Shown here one piece after another: positions 2,538-37,232 of a stretch of 64,000 bases of DNA. Positions within the stretch are counted from its first letter, which is position 1, and each line of letters begins with the position of its first letter. The notes below the pieces were generated by a model. It had not been told where the DNA came from and did no database searches. It saw only the letters and a program-made list of their open reading frames with translations. The position numbers and the translations under genes were made by a program. Source of the DNA: Terriglobia bacterium (GTDB taxonomy: Bacteria; Acidobacteriota; Terriglobia; JAIQFV01); contig JAIQFY010000002.1 of the NCBI GenBank assembly GCA_020072965.1, positions 62,001 to 126,000 on the forward strand. Reading direction: 5' to 3'.

Positions 2538-5183
2538 CTAAACTTGAGCTGCGCTCGATTGAGATAGCTGCAAGGATTTCAGGCCATTCAGCACCTTCTC
2601 CGGAGTAATCGGGAGATCGCGAATCCGGACGCCAACGGCGTTATAGACCGCGTTGGCGATGGCGGGAGCCACCCCGTTAATTGGAATCTCGGCGATCGCC
2701 TTCGCCCCATAGGGCCCTGTGGGTTCGTAGGTCTCCACCAGGAATGACTTGAGTTCGGGCATATCCACGGCCGTATAAATATTATAGTCCTTGAAGCTGA
2801 GGTTCAGCGGCCTCCCTTTTTCATCAAATACCATTTGCTCCGTTAAGGCGTATCCGAGGGCCTGAGCCACCGCGCCTTCGATCTGTCCTTCTGCCATTTT
2901 CGGATTGATGGCCACCCCACAATCCACCGCGGTGATCAATCGAAGCACCCTCACGATCCCCGTCTCCGCATCCACCTCTACCTCCGCGAACTGGGCACAG
3001 AAGGGGGGCGGAGAGTCATAGGACATGTGGGAAGCATGCCCCTGGATCTGAAATTGATGCTCCTGGTAAAGGGAACGTAAACAGACTTGATCAAAGGTCA
3101 CAAAACGTCCGTCCGGAGCACACACCTTGCCATTGTGCACAACCAGGTCTTTCGTGTCCGGACGGGTGATGGTGCTCGACTCCTTGCCGGCCGGATGGGC
3201 GGCTGTTCCTTTTATTGGATCCAGCATCTCCTCCGCGACTTCGAGGATCTGCTCTCGCGCCTGCTCGCAGGCCTTTTTAACAGCGTTCCCGGAAATGTAA
3301 GTGGTCGAAGAGGCGTACGCTCCGGGATCGAACGGAGTCATATCGGTGTCCGAAGAGTAGACGATGATCTTGTCAGGTGAAGTGCCGAGGGTTTCCGCCG
3401 CGACCTGGGCGAACATGGTGTCCGCCCCGGTCCCAATATCGGTCGCGCCGACCTTCAAGTTGAATGAGCCATCCTCGTTCATCTTGATCCATGCGGCGCC
3501 CATGTCGACGCCGGGAATTCCGGATGCCTGCATGGTACACGACATCCCGACTCCCCGGCAGAGTCGTCGCGAAACCCCGAATTTCAGATCTGAGATTTCA
3601 GATTTCAGAGTTGACGGTTTCGATCTTGCATCCGAATCCTTATCTGTGATTTCAGACCTCAGATTTGTCGGTTTCAATTTCGCATCCGAATCCTTATCTG
3701 AGATTTCAGATTTCAGATTCGTCTGCTTCGAATTTGAATCCCGGTCCTTTTCTGAAATCTCAGATTTCAAATCTGAGATCCCAGCGTTGGACGAATCGGA
3801 AACCCTGGGTCCAAGGATCCATGCCCGGGGATCCGGATTTCGATGCGTCTTCCACCCTATCTCCTTCGCTCCGCGCTCAATGCATTCATCCAGGCCACAG
3901 CTCTGGATCACTTGTTTATACCCCTCACGCCCTTCTCCCAGCACCTCCGCAATGGGCGTCGGTTCTCCCTCGCGCACATGGTTCCTTCTCCTGAATTCCA
4001 GGGGATCGAGCCCCAGCTTTTCGGCCAACTCATCCATGTGCGAGTCCAGCGCAAAAAAACCCTGTGGGCTTCCATATCCCCGAAACGCCCCCGCCACCGG
4101 GAGATTGGTGTAGACCGCGTTGGCCTCAAAGTGGATATTCGGAAATCGGTAGAGCGACAAAGCCCGGCTTCCACTGACGCACTGCACGGTGAGCGCGTGG
4201 GTTCCATAGGCGCCGGTGTTCTCCAGGATGTCCATCGAGATGGCTGTCAGGGTGCCATCCTTCCTGACGCCGGTTTTCATTCGAACAATCTGTGGATGGC
4301 GCGTGCGGGCGGCGTGGAGTTCCTCTGCCCTCGTGTACTCAAGCCGGCAGGGCCGTCCGGTCCGCACCGTCACCATCGCGCACAAATCTTCAATCAGAAT
4401 TTCCTGCTTACCGCCAAATCCTCCGCCAATCCGGGGCTTGATGACGCGGATCTTCTGAACGGGCAGCCCGATCAAGGGCGCAATGATGCGGCGGACATGA
4501 AAGGGCACCTGCGTGGAAGTCCGCACCATCAGTCTTCCATCCTCGTCCATCCAGGTGATAGTGATGTGCGGCTCGATCGATGCTTGCTGCACATAATGGA
4601 CCGTGTATTCTCCCTCATGGACCAGTTCGGCTTCCGCAAATCCTCTTTCAGCGTCGCCCACATCAGCCAGGACATGGGCGGCAATGTTTCGCTGGGGAGA
4701 GTGAATCCCCCGCTTATCGGGCTCCAAATGAAGACGAGGGATTCCGGAGTCAGACGCCTTACGCGGATCAAAGTTGGCCGGCAAAATCTCGTAATCGACC
4801 CCGATCAGATCCAGCGCCCGCTCGGCAATCTCCTCAGAATCCGCGGCCACACAGGCCACCCGGTCACCCACAAAGCGAACCACCGAATCAAACATCACGG
4901 TGTCGTAGGGAGACGGCTCCGGCCAACCCTGCCCGGCCGTGGTATAAGGAACCCGGGGAATATTCAGATACGTGAGGACGCAGCGAACCCCGCGAAGCCG
5001 TTCTGCCTCTTGTACATCGATCCTTTTGATCCGGGCATGCGCATGGGGGGAATGCAGGATCTTCGCATGAATCAACCCATCCATCTTGATGTCGTCAACA
5101 AATGTTCCCTTGCCGGAGGCCAGCTTGACGCTGTCTACACGGCGGGTGTTTTGATGGACACTTTTGAATTCGCGTGTGGGCAT
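2538..5183 (-). CDS. xdhD: Xanthine dehydrogenase-type molybdopterin-binding subunit
   Basis: This 881-residue protein is the large Mo-pterin subunit of the xanthine oxidase family (Ald_Xan_dh_C domains). Visible signatures are the N-terminal GKGTFVDDIKMDGLIHAKI, the pterin-loop regions RIGGGFGGKQE and AFRGYGSPQGFFALDSHMD, and near residue 832 the active-site Glu in GAKAIAEIPINGV, equivalent to the catalytic Glu of bovine XDH. It belongs with the downstream-numbered FeS and FAD subunit genes on the same strand, the three-subunit split form of E. coli XdhD/XdhABC. The probable substrate is a purine, given the neighbouring 8-oxoguanine-deaminase-like gene. Residues about 465-531 are a lysine/serine/aspartate-rich tandem repeat (units of 18 residues such as LKSEISDKDSDAKLKPTN) not expected in the family. 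It is encoded by a palindromic DNA repeat (separate entry), and the reading frame is intact through it. Confidence 0.88.
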   Translation of the reverse strand: MPTREFKSVHQNTRRVDSVKLASGKGTFVDDIKMDGLIHAKILHSPHAHARIKRIDVQEAERLRGVRCVLTYLNIPRVPYTTAGQGWPEPSPYDTVMFDSVVRFVGDRVACVAADSEEIAERALDLIGVDYEILPANFDPRKASDSGIPRLHLEPDKRGIHSPQRNIAAHVLADVGDAERGFAEAELVHEGEYTVHYVQQASIEPHITITWMDEDGRLMVRTSTQVPFHVRRIIAPLIGLPVQKIRVIKPRIGGGFGGKQEILIEDLCAMVTVRTGRPCRLEYTRAEELHAARTRHPQIVRMKTGVRKDGTLTAISMDILENTGAYGTHALTVQCVSGSRALSLYRFPNIHFEANAVYTNLPVAGAFRGYGSPQGFFALDSHMDELAEKLGLDPLEFRRRNHVREGEPTPIAEVLGEGREGYKQVIQSCGLDECIERGAKEIGWKTHRNPDPRAWILGPRVSDSSNAGISDLKSEISEKDRDSNSKQTNLKSEISDKDSDAKLKPTNLRSEITDKDSDARSKPSTLKSEISDLKFGVSRRLCRGVGMSCTMQASGIPGVDMGAAWIKMNEDGSFNLKVGATDIGTGADTMFAQVAAETLGTSPDKIIVYSSDTDMTPFDPGAYASSTTYISGNAVKKACEQAREQILEVAEEMLDPIKGTAAHPAGKESSTITRPDTKDLVVHNGKVCAPDGRFVTFDQVCLRSLYQEHQFQIQGHASHMSYDSPPPFCAQFAEVEVDAETGIVRVLRLITAVDCGVAINPKMAEGQIEGAVAQALGYALTEQMVFDEKGRPLNLSFKDYNIYTAVDMPELKSFLVETYEPTGPYGAKAIAEIPINGVAPAIANAVYNAVGVRIRDLPITPEKVLNGLKSLQLSQSSAAQV
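3585..3790. repeat. In-frame 54-bp tandem repeat / inverted-arm element within the Mo subunit gene
   Basis: About 200 bp made of ATCTGAGATTTCAGATTT-like units. The left end (3590-3612) and right end (3751-3781) are mutually inverted (TCTGAGATTTCAGATT versus its complement AATCTGAAATCTCAGA). Between them, three copies of a 54-bp unit encode the 18-residue protein repeat. Because 54 is a multiple of three, the host frame is preserved. The same AATTTCAGAT/CTGAGAT vocabulary is unlike the surrounding codon use. Confidence 0.8.
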
Positions 5184-23842: not shown

Positions 23843-24376
23843 AGAAGTTCCCTTCTTGTGTCCCGCCCTCGGCGGGTCGAGTTCATGAGCATGAGACGGT
23901 CATTATTCTGGATTCCGAATTTGCTGACCACCTCTTTATTCTCTTCGCTCGCATGGAGAGCAGTTGAAACGAATCTGGCCGCGCAATTAGAGATCTATGC
24001 CGCCCGCCAAGGCGGGCTGCCGGGGTGAAACCGTTCCTGGGGCTCACGCCCCAGGCTACTCCATTTCGCCGCCTTGCGGCTTAAAAAAATCACCTTTAGA
24101 ACTCGATATTATAGCGCAGGCGTCTCTCCCCATTCTTTCCAACGATTGACGATGATCGAATATTATGACCCCAGTCGTCCCATTAATTTCGAGTGGCGCA
24201 GGCCCGCCGAGGCGGAGATCACGGGCTTTGGCGACCGGCAGGGAAAAACCCGCGATCCCAAAAAACGGGATCACGGCTACCAGAGCTTGCCTTTTCGTGA
24301 GATGCTGTCATCCTTCACTATTTCTTATCATACTCAGTAGGCCCGCTGGATCCGCACAAGGGAAAGTAGAAAGGGA
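23843..24376. repeat. Intergenic cluster of palindromic repeats
   Basis: Four hairpins occur in 360 bp: CCCGCC-CTC-GGCGGG (23862-23876), GCCCGCC-AA-GGCGGGC (24002-24017), CCTGGGGC-TCAC-GCCCCAGG (24036-24055, perfect 8-bp stem) and a degenerate GCCCGCC-GA-GGCGGAG (24202-24217). A further stem, GATCCC/GGGATC around an A-rich loop, lies at about 24254-24272. The short frames in both directions merely read through these elements. This resembles a REP/palindrome cluster of the kind that accumulates between genes. Confidence 0.65.
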
Positions 24377-32147: not shown

Positions 32148-33116
32148 TTACCGGGCGACAAACAGGCTCTCCGCAAAGGGCCATTCAGTATCCACCCACT
32201 GGCCTTCGCACTCAAACCCGCATCGCCCTGCCATGGAAAGCACATCGTCGGTTGTGTATTTATGGCAACTCTCCGTCCAGATGGTTTCGTCGGCCTCAAA
32301 TCTCACTTCAAAATTCGCACGTGGAATGGCGACTGTTTGCGGCACCCGCGATCGAAGATGCATTTCGATGCGCTGATGAGCGGCGAGGTACCGGGCTTCA
32401 TGTTGAAACTGGGCCAGGATGAAATTCGCATCCAGCTCCCGATTGATGCGAGCGAGCAGATTCAGGTTGAAGGCTGCCGTGACTCCCAAAGGGTCGTCAT
32501 AGGCCAGAATCAACTGAGGGCTCGGTTTCTCCAGATCCGTTCCCAGTAAAAGCCCGTCGCCCGGCGTCAGAATTCCCCGGATCTGTTTGAGAAATTGCAG
32601 CCCGGGCTCGCGGTCGAAGTTCCCGATGGTGCTCCCCAGGAAGAGCACCAGGAGGTGTTCCGCGGGCCCACGGCGTGCGGCGACCTCAAGCAGGCCATCG
32701 AGATAGGGCCGTTCGACCCCCACAATGCTGACGGCGTTGATCTGGCTCAACTCCTGCCGGCATCGCGCCAGCGCCGACGGCGAGATCTCGATCGGGTAGT
32801 AGGCCGTCGCCTGCCGCCGGGAGAGCGCCTCCAGGATCCAGCGGGTCTTCTTGCCGCTGCCGCTCCCGAGCTCGGTGACCAGGGCGGGCAAAGACAGCCG
32901 GTTCACCATGGCATCGGCATGCCGCCGCAACAGCCGTTCGTCGGCCCGGGTCAGGCCGTACTCCGGCAGCGCAGAGATGACTTCAAAGAGCGCCGACCCG
33001 ACTTCATCGTACAAATACTTTGAGGGGAGTTCCTTCTGTCCCGGCTTGCTCAAACCGACACGAACATCCGCCGCAAAATCAGTTTGTGAATCCGCAGGAA
33101 TTGTCTGAGTGTACAT
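32148..33116 (-). CDS. egtD: L-histidine N-alpha-methyltransferase (ergothioneine biosynthesis)
   Basis: 322 residues from the ATG at 33116, which has a G-rich ribosome binding site. EgtD transfers three methyl groups from SAM to histidine to make hercynine. Family marks: SKYLYDEVGSALFEVISALPEYG at the N-terminus, the SAM-binding LVTELGSGSGKKTRWILEA, LVLFLGSTIGNFDREPG, LLLGTDLEKP and the C-terminal YTTDDVLSMAGRCGFECEG. The N-terminal YDEVGSALFE is characteristic. It follows egtB with a 20-bp gap and is certainly co-transcribed. Upstream frame beyond 33116 has no support. Confidence 0.93.
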   Translation of the reverse strand: MYTQTIPADSQTDFAADVRVGLSKPGQKELPSKYLYDEVGSALFEVISALPEYGLTRADERLLRRHADAMVNRLSLPALVTELGSGSGKKTRWILEALSRRQATAYYPIEISPSALARCRQELSQINAVSIVGVERPYLDGLLEVAARRGPAEHLLVLFLGSTIGNFDREPGLQFLKQIRGILTPGDGLLLGTDLEKPSPQLILAYDDPLGVTAAFNLNLLARINRELDANFILAQFQHEARYLAAHQRIEMHLRSRVPQTVAIPRANFEVRFEADETIWTESCHKYTTDDVLSMAGRCGFECEGQWVDTEWPFAESLFVAR

Positions 33117-33136
33117 TCGCCCACCCCCGGAGAAAA

Positions 33137-34468
33137 TCAATTCTCGACGCACCGGAAACTTGCATAGGCGTATGGGTACTGCGGCTGAAACCAGTTGCGA
33201 AATGAACGCCGCAACATGCACATTGCCGTGCGCGGTGATGCCCCCTTCAGAACAAAATGCTTCCCATCGAAGAAGTCCGCGGAATAGCCCGGATAGAACG
33301 AGAACCGCTCAAACCCCGGCAGGGGCTCAAATAGAGTGCGGGTCCATTCCCAACCGTTCCCCATAAGATCTGCCACTCCAAAGGCACTGTTGCCTCCAGG
33401 AGATGTTCCCACGGGTGCAGGATCCCAGCTCTGGAAATTGAAATTCCCATGCTGCGGCGCGGGAAGATCATTTCCCCAAGGATAGGATCGCTCAACACCC
33501 TCAGGTGTTCCAACGGCAGCGCGGTGCCACTGTGCCTCCGTGGGCAGCGACTTCCCTTTCCAGCGCGCATAGGCGGAGGCCTCGGCATGACTCACATACG
33601 CCGGCCATTGCAGCGGAAGGGGGACCTCAGCAAAGATCGTCCGAAAAATCCAGCCATCGGCGGTTTTGTTCCAGAAGAGAGGGTGGTGGATCTCCGCCGA
33701 GGCTTTCCATTCCCAGTCCGCCGAGGCCCAAAATGAGCAATCTTCGTAAGCCCCACATCGAATGAACTCCAGGAATTCGCCGTTTGTCACGTTGTAAACA
33801 TCGATCCGGAACGGCGGAACCCGGACCGCAAGCCGCTGAAACTCATTGTCGCATCCGAAAGGATGCCCCCTGCCCCGGTGCATCCCCAGGGTCGCCATGC
33901 CCCCGGGAATTTCAACCATTCCGGGCCGGACAGCCGAGGCCGAGACAGTTTTTTTCGCGGGTGGAATCCGCTTTTGATGAAAGGGCAACCGTTGCAACAT
34001 ATAGGTCAATGTCTCGGCGTGCATGAGCCGGTGCTCGATGGCCACATGGAGGAGGTATCCGTCCAAAAGTAATGGAAATTCGGAATCCGCAAATGAGGCC
34101 TTCTGGAGGGCTGCATCGACTTGCCGCCGGGCACACTGGCTGTATCTTCGAACCTCTTCTTCCGAGGGCCAGTCGGTGGGCTGGTCCGAAGGTAATGTTC
34201 CATTGACCGGATCGATTCCAAATGCAAAAAGTCGATCCAAGCTTTTGTCCGCCTGACCCAACCCCAGGGCATGCTGCCCAATCAGGTTCCAGTCAAAGGT
34301 TTCCAGGTGACCAATGTAAAAAACGATTCGATGCCGTTCCGGAATCGGTCGCTCATAAAGGGCCGCGGGATGCACCAATCGAAAAAGTTCATCGGTGCTC
34401 GCCCGGGCTTCCGCCAAACGCGTTAATATTTTCGGGCGAACATCTAAAGTGGGTGCGGCTGCGCTCAT
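33137..34468 (-). CDS. egtB: EgtB-like iron-dependent sulfoxide synthase (ergothioneine biosynthesis)
   Basis: 443 residues, standard EgtB architecture. The N-terminal DinB-like domain carries iron ligands, with a first His in YIGHLETFDWN and the H-x3-H-x-E motif in IEHRLMHAETLTYML. The C-terminal formylglycine-generating-enzyme-like (SUMF1) domain contains WASADWEWKASAEIHHPLFW, YVSHAEASAYARWKGKSLPT and NSAFGVADLMGNGWEWTRTLF. EgtB joins hercynine to a thiol donor (gamma-glutamylcysteine or cysteine) in the presence of O2. EgtC, EgtA and EgtE genes are not in this window, so the Cys-dependent variant or distant genes must be considered. It is upstream of egtD, which it overlaps in transcription. 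Confidence 0.92.
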   Translation of the reverse strand: MSAAAPTLDVRPKILTRLAEARASTDELFRLVHPAALYERPIPERHRIVFYIGHLETFDWNLIGQHALGLGQADKSLDRLFAFGIDPVNGTLPSDQPTDWPSEEEVRRYSQCARRQVDAALQKASFADSEFPLLLDGYLLHVAIEHRLMHAETLTYMLQRLPFHQKRIPPAKKTVSASAVRPGMVEIPGGMATLGMHRGRGHPFGCDNEFQRLAVRVPPFRIDVYNVTNGEFLEFIRCGAYEDCSFWASADWEWKASAEIHHPLFWNKTADGWIFRTIFAEVPLPLQWPAYVSHAEASAYARWKGKSLPTEAQWHRAAVGTPEGVERSYPWGNDLPAPQHGNFNFQSWDPAPVGTSPGGNSAFGVADLMGNGWEWTRTLFEPLPGFERFSFYPGYSADFFDGKHFVLKGASPRTAMCMLRRSFRNWFQPQYPYAYASFRCVEN

Positions 34469-34565
34469 GGGATTGTCCAGCTCTGCAAATTAAAAATTCC
34501 CTGTTTCTTGTTAGTCCTCATCTTGCCGAGACGTGAGCGCGAAAGCAAGTAGAAAATCAGTTGGG

Positions 34566-34797
34566 AGAAGCAGTGATCAGTGGCCAGTGACCAGTGGCCA
34601 GTAGCCAGTGGTCAGTGCTCAGTGAATAACGAAGTCAAAGAGGTAAGCAATCCGCGAGTGGTTGAGATTATTTGGCAGGAAGGATGCTTGAATACAAAAA
34701 CTGGAAAGCAAACTTACGACGCCTAACCAAAAGCTGACGCCTGACTACCTCGAGCTGACCGGGGCTCACTGGCCACTGGCCACTGACCACTGCTTCT
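34566..34797. repeat. Stutter-repeat inverted element between egtB and the transporter gene
   Basis: The left arm (34566-34625) is built of AGTGGCCAGTGACC-like units, and the right arm (34766-34797) of TCACTGGCCACTGG-type units. Left 34566-34591 and right 34772-34797 are complementary with about two mismatches in 26. They enclose ~140 bp of unrelated AT-richer DNA. The right arm abuts the stop codon of the transporter gene. The element has no gene. It resembles the pair at 36352-36453 and the DNA inside the Mo-subunit gene in design, though with different repeat vocabulary. It could be a MITE-like or bidirectional terminator structure. Confidence 0.7.
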
Positions 34798-36339
34798 TCA
34801 TTTTCCTTCCAGAAACTCATTCACCACCTGTTTCACGTCTCGATGTTCGCTGTCCACCTGGTAGTTGAGACGGCGCATCTCATGATCGGAGACCGTACCG
34901 CCCAGCGAGTTCAAGGCCCCCGCGACTTGAGGATACCTTTCCACGATTCCCTTCCGAACGACGGGAGCCGCCTGGTAGGGAGGGAAATATTGCCGATCAT
35001 CCTGGAGCGCCACCAGACCCAACAGCTCGATCGCCCCATCCGTCGAATTGCCCGCGATGACATCCACCTGGCCGTTTGCGAGCGCCCGGTAGGTGAGTGA
35101 AAGATCCATCTCGCGGGGCGGCTCCACGAATTTCAAATCATAGGTTCGGGAGAAACCCGGATACCCATCCGGCCTCGACATGAAGTCCTGCCCAAACCCG
35201 GCTCGCCAGCGGGGCGCGTAGCGCGAGATGTCGGATATTTTTCGAAGGCTCAGGCGTTGAGCTTCGTCCCCCCGCACCAGGATCGCGAAAGTGTTATTGA
35301 ATCCCAGTGGCGCCAGCCACACCAGGCCGAACCTTTCCAAATATTCCCGCTTGACCTGAACATATACGGCACCCGGATCAGCTATGGGCTGATGCTTGAG
35401 GATGGCCGCGAAAGCCGTGCCCGTGTACTCGACATAAATGTCAATCTCCCCGGCCAGCAGGGCGCGATGGCAGAGATCTCCTCCCAGTTCAAACCTTCGT
35501 TCCACGTCGAGGCCTGTCCGCCGTTCAATCTGCCGGGCGATTAATTCACCCAGAATCACCTGCTCTGTAAAATCCTTCGACCCGACGACGATGCGATGAA
35601 TGGGCGGTATTCGGGTGACACGGCTCAAAGTCAAGAATCCGATCAGGATGATTCCTACCATCACCAGGGCCGGCACCCATTTCCGCGAAGGATTTTTGCC
35701 CGAACTTCGGTGGAACTTCAATATGCTTTCCAACCGGCCGAGCATGAAATCAGCCGCCAGCGCCATAAGGGCTGCAGGGAGCGCCCCGGCCAGAATCAGC
35801 TGATTGTCATTCATGCGCAGCCCCCGGAAGATGTATGTTCCCAGTCCTCCAGCTCCAATCGCGGCCGCGATCGTGGCAGTCCCCACCGAAATCACCGTTG
35901 CGACACGTACTCCCGCGAGAATCACGCTGAGCGAAAGTGGCAGTTCCACTTGCACCAGGATTTGCCAGTCAGTCATTCCCATGCCGAGCGCCGCTTCCCG
36001 GACCGCGGGTTCGACCCCCCGAATGCCTGTAAAGGTGTTTTGGATAATGGGAAGTAATGAGTAAATGAACAATGCGATGACGGCGGGGACTTGGCCGATC
36101 CCGTGAGTGCCAAGCAGCGGGATAAGAAAACCAAACAGCGCCAAGCTGGGAATGGTTTGCAGGACATTCGCCATGCCCAGGACGAGCTTGCTTAAACCCG
36201 GCTTCCTCGTCAGAAAAATCCCAATAGGTATGCCGATGCAAATGCCCGCCCCCGTCCCCGACGCCACCAGGAACAAATGCTGAAGGACGAGGGCGAGAGC
36301 TTCGGCACGGTTACGGATGAGAAAATCAATCAGGCCCAT
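34798..36339 (-). CDS. Fused permease / substrate-binding protein of OpuC/EgtU type
   Basis: About 513 residues from the ATG at 36339 (GGGACATCCT upstream). Residues 1-215 are a BPD-type ABC permease with six predicted spans, including VLQTIPSLALFGFLIPLLG and the EAA-type loop VEPAVREAALGMGMTDWQI. After a membrane anchor (VPALVMVGIILIGFLTLS), residues ~240-513 are an OpuC-type binding domain: VVGSKDFTEQVILGELIARQ, IDIYVEYTGTAFAAI, NGQVDVIAGNSTDGAI. Permease and receptor fusions of this type import glycine betaine or other quaternary amines. The EgtU members of the family bind ergothioneine. Beside egtB and egtD, and with its ATPase next, ergothioneine or hercynine transport is a reasonable hypothesis. 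Betaine or choline uptake is the alternative. Confidence 0.88.
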   Translation of the reverse strand: MGLIDFLIRNRAEALALVLQHLFLVASGTGAGICIGIPIGIFLTRKPGLSKLVLGMANVLQTIPSLALFGFLIPLLGTHGIGQVPAVIALFIYSLLPIIQNTFTGIRGVEPAVREAALGMGMTDWQILVQVELPLSLSVILAGVRVATVISVGTATIAAAIGAGGLGTYIFRGLRMNDNQLILAGALPAALMALAADFMLGRLESILKFHRSSGKNPSRKWVPALVMVGIILIGFLTLSRVTRIPPIHRIVVGSKDFTEQVILGELIARQIERRTGLDVERRFELGGDLCHRALLAGEIDIYVEYTGTAFAAILKHQPIADPGAVYVQVKREYLERFGLVWLAPLGFNNTFAILVRGDEAQRLSLRKISDISRYAPRWRAGFGQDFMSRPDGYPGFSRTYDLKFVEPPREMDLSLTYRALANGQVDVIAGNSTDGAIELLGLVALQDDRQYFPPYQAAPVVRKGIVERYPQVAGALNSLGGTVSDHEMRRLNYQVDSEHRDVKQVVNEFLEGK

Positions 36340-36351
36340 AGGATGTCCCAT

Positions 36352-36453
36352 TGTGAATTGCGGAATGCGGATTTCGGATGGCGGAGTGCGGAATTCAACC
36401 TCCACCTCCTCAAATCTGCAATCTCAATTCAATTCGCAATCCGAAATTCCATC
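36352..36453. repeat. Stutter-repeat element between permease and ATPase genes
   Basis: Left arm 36352-36395 (units such as GAATTGCGGAATGCGGATTTCGGAT) and right arm 36411-36453 (AATCTGCAATCTCAATTCAA, CGCAATCCGAAATTCC) are imperfect inverted copies. TTTCGGAT(T/G)GCG is the best-matching core. The element fills the gap between the two transporter genes, so the arms may fold into an intercistronic hairpin in the mRNA. Confidence 0.6.
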
Positions 36454-36455
36454 TC

Positions 36456-37232
36456 TTACAACCGCCCCATCGAATCGATGAAGGCCTTTGCCTCGGGGAC
36501 CTGGGAATGGGCAAACTCGTCCGGGGTTTGCATTTCGATGAGGTGCCCGTCTTTAAACAGCCCGATCCTTGAACCCAGCAGTAGGGCCTCACGGACGTCA
36601 TGGGTGACAAACACAATGGTCTTGTGGAGCCCCGCCGCCAGCCGGGCAAACTCCCGCTGCAATTCGCTGCGCGTGATGGGATCGAGGGCACCAAATGGTT
36701 CATCCATCAGGAGAATGGGCGGATCGGCCGCAAGAGCCCGAGCCACGCCCACGCGCTGACGTTGTCCACCCGAAAGTTCGTGAGGAAGACGCGGCGCAAA
36801 TTGCTCGGGAGGCAGTCCGACCAATTCCAGCAGCTCCCGCACACGCGCCCGAATTCGCTCCTCAGGCCAATGTTCCAACTGGGGGACCAATCCGATGTTT
36901 CGCTGGACGGTGAAATGGGGAAAAAGTCCAATTTCCTGGATGACATAGCCGATCGAGCGGCGGAGGCGAATCGCGTCCCAGTGGGTGGTAGGGATATCGC
37001 CCACCAAGACCTCTCCGTCCGTGGGCGCCAACAGACGGTTGATCAGTTTCAGGGTGGTCGTCTTCCCTGATCCGCTCCGACCCAGCAGGACGAGCGTCTC
37101 GCCACGTCGTACCTCAAAGTTCAGGCCCTCCACAAGCGCCTTGCCGCTCAGGGTGCATAACGTTACCGCTGCAAACTGGACATCGATCTCGGTTGATGAA
37201 TGGGTCATTTCTCGATTCAAGGATTCAGCCAT
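36456..37232 (-). CDS. ABC transporter ATPase, OpuCA/ProV type (partner of the fused permease)
   Basis: 258 residues with Walker A LLGRSGSGKTTTLK, Q-loop YVIQEIGLFPHFTVQ, signature HELSGGQRQRVGVARAL, Walker B ILLMDEPFGALDP and H-loop IVFVTHDVREALL. The R-E-A-L after HDV and the FPHFTV region are typical of the quaternary-amine (OpuCA/ProV) subfamily. There is no C-terminal CBS pair, so osmotic gating of the ProV type is unlikely. It precedes the permease gene on the same strand with 116 bp between them, occupied by a repeat element. The start is uncertain: an ATG eight codons downstream is an alternative. Confidence 0.9.
   Translation of the reverse strand: MAESLNREMTHSSTEIDVQFAAVTLCTLSGKALVEGLNFEVRRGETLVLLGRSGSGKTTTLKLINRLLAPTDGEVLVGDIPTTHWDAIRLRRSIGYVIQEIGLFPHFTVQRNIGLVPQLEHWPEERIRARVRELLELVGLPPEQFAPRLPHELSGGQRQRVGVARALAADPPILLMDEPFGALDPITRSELQREFARLAAGLHKTIVFVTHDVREALLLGSRIGLFKDGHLIEMQTPDEFAHSQVPEAKAFIDSMGRL

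Follow-up and report, generated by a model that had tools for sequence, protein, structure and literature searches.

Heptamer repeats have been known in bacteria since the work on cyanobacteria, whose STRR are short tandem heptamers defined by fixed words; most of these repeats are built of one word per lineage, and there is no agreed mechanism for them. In Xanthomonas and Nostoc, GGGAATC and GGGGA(C/T)T heptamers have been described (Rehm et al. 2015, PMC4692102); two Xanthomonas genomes have 70 and 75 inverted pairs that converge. According to the parts of that report considered here, GGGAATC repeats lie on the coding strand near stop codons and on the non-coding strand near start codons, are scarce between divergent genes and keep their positions between species, and their function is left open. 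The TAACTGA direct repeats of Beggiatoaceae, Cyanobacteria and Bacteroidetes, as presented in the sections covered of MacGregor (2015, PMC4679880), consist of one fixed word, with one inverted case in 170 sets. The subject of the present analysis is an inverted heptad element at positions 34566-34797 of a 64,000-nucleotide stretch (the window), which lies in contig 15 (C15) of the 5.9-Mb draft genome of a Terriglobia bacterium (G000). We give a probability of about 0.5 to the reading that this is a DNA-level hairpin element, in place at the 3' end of a gene and belonging to a genome-wide class, which grew by 7-nt slippage and whose arms are homogenised, and spacer sometimes flipped, by arm-arm exchange.

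The nearest known system is that of the inverted GGGAATC heptamer pairs of Xanthomonas. As in that class, so far as its description was covered, the present arrays are intergenic 7-nt tandem units in convergent inverted pairs of fixed polarity (46/46 gaps, see below). Unlike the Xanthomonas repeats in the same description, the words here contain few Gs and are variable both inside a locus and from one locus to the next, the arms match by word family and order, and joint word change of both arms and inversion of the spacer were found, which sets them apart from the account available to us in PMC4692102. Because the focal words have no quadruplex-capable G-tracts, the element is not filed in the GGGAATC family; what the two have in common is their layout and not the G-runs. 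The TAACTGA word, read as CTGATAA, fits the right-arm form CYGAYNN, and these repeats, in the portion of their description considered, are likewise intergenic heptamers lying mostly just before start codons, like the right arms here. Unlike the present arrays, however, they consist of one fixed word and are mostly unpaired. In the present genomes, several word families follow one layout. In the open-access literature, taken at the level of titles and abstract openings and with subscription papers mostly outside it, no account of arm homogenisation or spacer inversion in such arrays was found.

The element has the following parts (window positions; G001 is a relative of the same genus):

34566-34596, plus strand: outer left arm of the 31-bp stem obtained by the stem search, beginning AGAAGCAGTG
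34571-34624, plus strand: left heptad array, 7.7 units of period 7, with the words CAGTGAT CAGTGGC CAGTGAC CAGTGGC CAGTAGC CAGTGGT CAGTGCT CAGTG
34625-34766, no strand: spacer, present once in the genome; its alignment with the G001 spacer does not exceed shuffled controls
34733-34759, minus strand: degenerate inner words of a second family (GTCAGC type), in one arm only
34767-34792, minus strand: right heptad array, 3.7 units of period 7, CAGTGGY when read on the minus strand
34767-34797, minus strand: outer right arm of the 31-bp stem, ending against the transporter stop codon

The longest outer stem measures 31 nt, is 94% complementary with 2 mismatches and leaves 170 nt between the arms; an alternative pairing reaches 38 nt at 79% and leaves 139 nt. 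An earlier note on this DNA had proposed complementary arms with two mismatches, which are real, and its length of about 26 bp was an understatement. It had also spoken of shuffled words of 7-8 bp: the words do vary, being degenerate 7-nt CAGTGRY, but the period is exactly 7 in both arrays. The right arm, said there to abut the transporter stop codon, ends at 34797 and the stop TGA (minus strand) occupies 34798-34800, so that the contact is direct. The sequence CAGTGRYCAGTGRYCAGTG has 5 occurrences in the whole genome, 4 of them inside the element, and 0 when read backwards. The spacer has no second copy in the genome and the arms alone recur elsewhere. When the element is folded as RNA, the plus strand gives a z of -6.35 and the minus strand one of -7.08, and 0 of 200 dinucleotide shuffles fold equally well on either strand; the inverted repeat is therefore beyond chance. 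A search for intrinsic terminators (short G+C-rich stem, loop of 3-8 nt, U run) found 0 sites at the element, in agreement with the earlier opinion that an ordinary terminator does not explain it. No Rfam model matches the element in a scan of the window, which returned only a tRNA and Acido-Lenti-1, both elsewhere in it. The Acido-Lenti-1 RNA lies at 24036-24081 (50.5 bits) and makes the Acidobacteriota the probable phylum of the genome.

The element belongs to a class that is widespread in its genome. Arrays were sought, with a criterion of 16/21 matches at the lag, in stretches amounting to 830,952 bases of G000 and 700,000 bases of G001. The G000 contigs were picked for array-word matches, so that their array density is not an unbiased estimate, and contig C1 of G001 was picked for synteny. 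Genes were called with a simple codon model; 40 kb of the genome G053, in which it called no genes, were excluded for this reason, and the stretches of G009 were excluded as well. Period-7 arrays number 124 in G000 and 62 in G001 (36 of them in the 600 kb of C1 alone), while other periods from 5 to 13 give at most 9 and at most 12 arrays, respectively (14 being a multiple of 7). Thus, the element is neither unique nor absent from relatives, contrary to the outcome that would have refuted the earlier note: 124 arrays occur in 831 kb, and G001 shares the element itself. Nearly all arrays are intergenic, their midpoints falling inside called genes in only 5/124 cases in G000 and 2/62 in G001. The words differ among loci and include CAGCNRT, CAGTTGY, CAGTGRY, GAAGTCAG, CAGGTGT, CCAAAGT, GATAGGT, GCGGAAT, and others.

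Gaps between genes that hold an array number 112, and 55 of them hold two or more. In 47 of these 55, the first and last arrays are more alike inverted than direct. Inverted arm similarity is 0.596, against 0.492 ± 0.012 for re-dealt arms (5000 deals, maximum 0.536). Word order is also matched across the arms beyond what word content gives, 36 of 46 loci lying above permutation (Wilcoxon 1.5e-6). A looser threshold was used for position relative to genes: in 55 co-directional paired gaps, the median distance is 5 nt between stop-side arm and stop codon and 35 nt between start-side arm and start codon. The stop-side arm is within 20 nt of the stop in 40 of these 55 gaps, compared with 26 under random placement (maximum 35 in 2000 trials). 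Among gaps of 200-500 nt, arrays are present in 53/225 co-directional and 12/48 convergent ones and in only 4/73 divergent ones (Fisher p 2e-4). The class is tied to gene 3' ends. The idea that the stop-side arm is the primary one was dropped: single arms in co-directional gaps are sense in 15 cases and antisense in 16.

The arms also obey a polarity. When 1027 gaps were scanned for three RTCRGNN units, no more than one mismatch being allowed, 155 matches resulted, versus 9 for the same pattern read backwards, and the plus-strand (RTCRG-type) arm comes first in all 46 of the gaps holding both orientations. The RTCRG consensus was derived from the same genomes that were scanned; the order within a gap remained free. 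Polarity determined by distance alone is 22 to 0 in each of G000 and G001.

Sites are mostly inherited. The focal element is present in G001 between the same genes, with arms CAGTTGT and ACAACTG in place of CAGTGRY and with an inner array of CAGC type at the equivalent position behind the stop-side arm. In G002, a member of the same family with words of the RAGTGAC type, the same gene pair is about 158 nt apart without an array, and this junction is too diverged to place the element ends. Since G001 has the element and the G002 junction is without it, the element was either gained on the G000/G001 line or lost outside it. Comparison of 213 syntenic gaps of G000 and G001 found arrays in both species in 41, in G000 only in 9, in G001 only in 6 and in neither in 157, so that 41 of 56 array-bearing gaps are common to both. 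Words at inherited sites can be replaced, and both arms have changed words together at three loci, namely the focal site, C52:72715 and C92:20450. At another junction, the long inverted arms of G001 (C1:38635-39061) are made of 9-nt words (GGTCTGTTC type) and the syntenic G000 region (C15:37220-37299) has 7-nt CAGC words, which indicates that unit length itself can differ between sister species.

The spacers give the most direct indication of how the arms behave. Of the 41 syntenic gaps in which both species have arrays, 39 could be examined, being short enough. In 13 of these, one or both species had no clear arm pair or no long enough spacer; the spacers aligned in neither orientation in 10 (the focal one included), directly in 13 and inverted in 3. 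At C15:53112 about 97 bases of spacer are inverted between the species (score 77.5, against 12.5 for the direct orientation and 11 for the best of 100 shuffles), and at C19:77782 the full 68-nt spacer is inverted (score 46, against 9 direct and 13 for the best shuffle). The third case, C96:25019, is a marginal 16-nt match and was not counted. Clear inversions therefore amount to 2 of the 15 spacers alignable in one orientation, and array-free syntenic gaps showed a significant inverted match exceeding the direct one in 0/134 cases (Fisher 0.01, computed as 2/15 versus 0/129). These two inversions, at loci other than the focal one, show that arms interact and exchange at the DNA level, and the origin of the arms thereby becomes testable.

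On the reading preferred here, each arm would grow and shrink in 7-nt steps by slippage, and the arms would stay alike by one being copied onto, or exchanged with, the other, possibly through replication template switching or inverted-repeat recombination. Since the arms would be copied as a pair, a word could change in both together. Template switching between inverted repeats has been reported, in the parts of the two papers considered, to homogenise arms and invert the spacer (PMC8604942, PMC8794818); arms alike and spacer inverted are found here too, and those descriptions concern yeast and RNA genes, not heptad arrays. The elements would be inherited in place rather than hopping, and would persist mostly just past stop codons and rarely between divergent genes. 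Past stop codons they are probably passengers that the cell tolerates, and any role as 3'-end structures would be secondary. Post-stop intergenic DNA in many environmental genomes may thus be rewritten in place.

Several results weigh against this reading. At the focal site itself no inversion was found, its spacer aligning with that of G001 in neither orientation (global-alignment identity 71%, under the shuffled mean of 76%), and the order of its words is no better than permuted (p 0.72). Word order reaches p <= 0.05 at a single locus in only 7 of 46 loci. At C92:9431 the right arm was kept and the left arm replaced. The two inversions could in principle be artefacts of assembly, since both genomes are drafts. 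In addition, symmetric copying leaves the fixed inward polarity (46/46) unexplained.

Selection of an RNA structure at transcript 3' ends, where a stem after the stop codon would shield the messenger, be cut by RNase III or separate the genes of an operon, is an unlikely explanation that nevertheless accounts for part of the data. The closeness of the stop-side arm to the stop and the scarcity of arrays in divergent gaps are as it would predict, and on the focal sense (minus) strand the stem begins immediately behind UGA and the two mismatches of the 31-bp stem turn into G-U pairs. This last feature is a coincidence, because over 40 co-directional loci G-U pairs number 71 on the sense strand and 75 on the antisense strand, with no strand asymmetry. 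Against RNA selection also stand the lack of a terminator-like site at the focal element and the freedom with which words and spacer change between sister species. A structure stabilising operon ends, which the earlier note had raised, is conceivable.

The earlier note had also suggested a non-autonomous mobile element. Foldback elements, or elements resembling miniature inverted-repeat transposable elements (MITE), whose ends would be arrays of transposase-binding heptads, would explain a fixed inward polarity such as transposon ends have (46/46 in this sample, and 37 versus 4 across phyla among the matches listed, see below), the array-free G002 junction and the patchy distribution of the pattern, which is present in 95 of 297 genomes of the phylum. 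However, the single-copy spacer does not provide the shared internal sequence of MITE or foldback families, the sites are largely common to the sister species (41/56), and inspection by eye showed no target-site duplication at the focal site. Nor are RAYT genes associated with the arrays: they occur in 200/297 genomes, array-free ones included, and six G000 stretches around them carry palindromes of their own and no excess of arrays. A mobile element in the usual sense is thus not supported, and we regard this origin as quite improbable. An origin from RAYT and repetitive extragenic palindromic (REP) sequences was likewise dropped, since the arrays do not show what marks REP and bacterial interspersed mosaic elements (BIME), namely palindromes of 20-40 nt beside a RAYT gene or linked to one.

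The genome G000 has at least 12 RAYT-type transposase matches, and those examined are flanked by their own palindromes, which constitute a second, separate repeat system. Such loci (L293-L298) include C67:29421, C10:23269, C36:37177 and 39846, C84:9774, C43:154774 and C100:164920.

Pure heptamer slippage in unconstrained DNA, without interaction between the arms, is very unlikely. A 7-nt step has been proposed to favour polymerase slippage (Mrazek 2007, as told in the portions considered of PMC4692102 and PMC4679880), but slippage does not account for arms that are inverted and share one family, for the match in word order, for the fixed polarity or for the inverted spacers. The weakest candidate is an array binding a DNA- or RNA-binding protein, or forming a quadruplex as Rehm proposes for GGGAATC in the part of PMC4692102 covered, since the focal CAGTGRY words hold no GGG run, so that no quadruplex is expected there, and the words vary from one locus to another and, at a single site, from one sister species to the other. 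Loss of SbcCD as a permissive condition for arrays was also dropped: SbcD is above cut-off in 35/297 genomes, array-rich G224, G293 and G305 among them, and is also absent from array-free genomes.

The inward polarity extends beyond this phylum. One genome-wide scan gave, among the matches listed, 97 CAGTGRY clusters with room on both sides in 118 stretches; an inverted partner lay only downstream for 42, only upstream for 4, on both sides for 1 and nowhere for 50, and shuffled sequence supplied a partner for 0/97. Counted by locus and again among the matches listed, 37 are inward versus 4, and any-RTCRG words in the same stretches give 27 versus 2. Titles were available for 21 of the 37 listed loci and include Acidobacteria, Chloroflexi, Planctomycetes, Verrucomicrobia (with Kiritimatiellae), Bacteroidetes, Bacillota, Actinobacteria, Burkholderiales and Deltaproteobacteria; some of these labels may be wrong, because many come from metagenome bins. 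NNRTCRG as a universal word was rejected: the reversed form is as common or commoner in some genomes of the phylum (10 versus 678 in G118, 34 versus 244 in G168), and RTCRG is therefore a frequent dialect and not a law. The pattern is frequent in a cultured relative, Acidobacteria bacterium AB60. If widely valid, the polarity rule would point to an unaccounted directional process acting on hairpins. It is conceivable, though doubtful, that these units form a bacteria-wide foldback class in which each lineage uses its own 7-nt words and all follow a single polarity rule, with a 5' arm like RTCRG and a 3' arm like CYGAY. A directional DNA activity, such as a hairpin-reading polymerase, a nuclease or a transposase, would then generate and maintain them, copying arm onto arm and flipping the spacer, and gene 3' ends would become invertible DNA that is rewritten rapidly.

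The surroundings of the focal element are as follows:

34798-36405, minus strand: gene for a 535-aa protein in which a BPD_transp_1 permease is fused to an OpuAC binding domain; its stop codon (34798-34800) touches the right arm
34469-34565, minus strand: leader between the element and the next gene, 86% identical in G001 over 87 aligned bases
33137-34468, minus strand: EgtB/OvoA/SenA-like gene downstream of the element, below NCBIfam cut-offs

The next gene after the latter is EgtD-like and scores 288.1 bits, just under the EgtD cut-off of 290.9. Over 32148-37232 (minus strand), the permease/OpuAC fusion and an ABC ATPase stand directly upstream of the EgtB-like and EgtD-like genes. The cluster looks like ergothioneine-type uptake beside synthesis, an arrangement that may be linked to EgtUV.

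Other repeats were observed near these genes and elsewhere. A period-7 array of TGCGGAA words lies near the transporter gene start (36359-36394), and G001 has related arrays at the same junction. After the transporter homologue of another genome (locus L258, G003 C59), inverted repeats of ATCTGCGTTC type, their units measuring about 10-11 nt, stand directly after the stop codon. At 3581-3769 of the window, a period-7 array of AGATTTC words is nested in a 54-nt tandem repeat of 3.4 copies.
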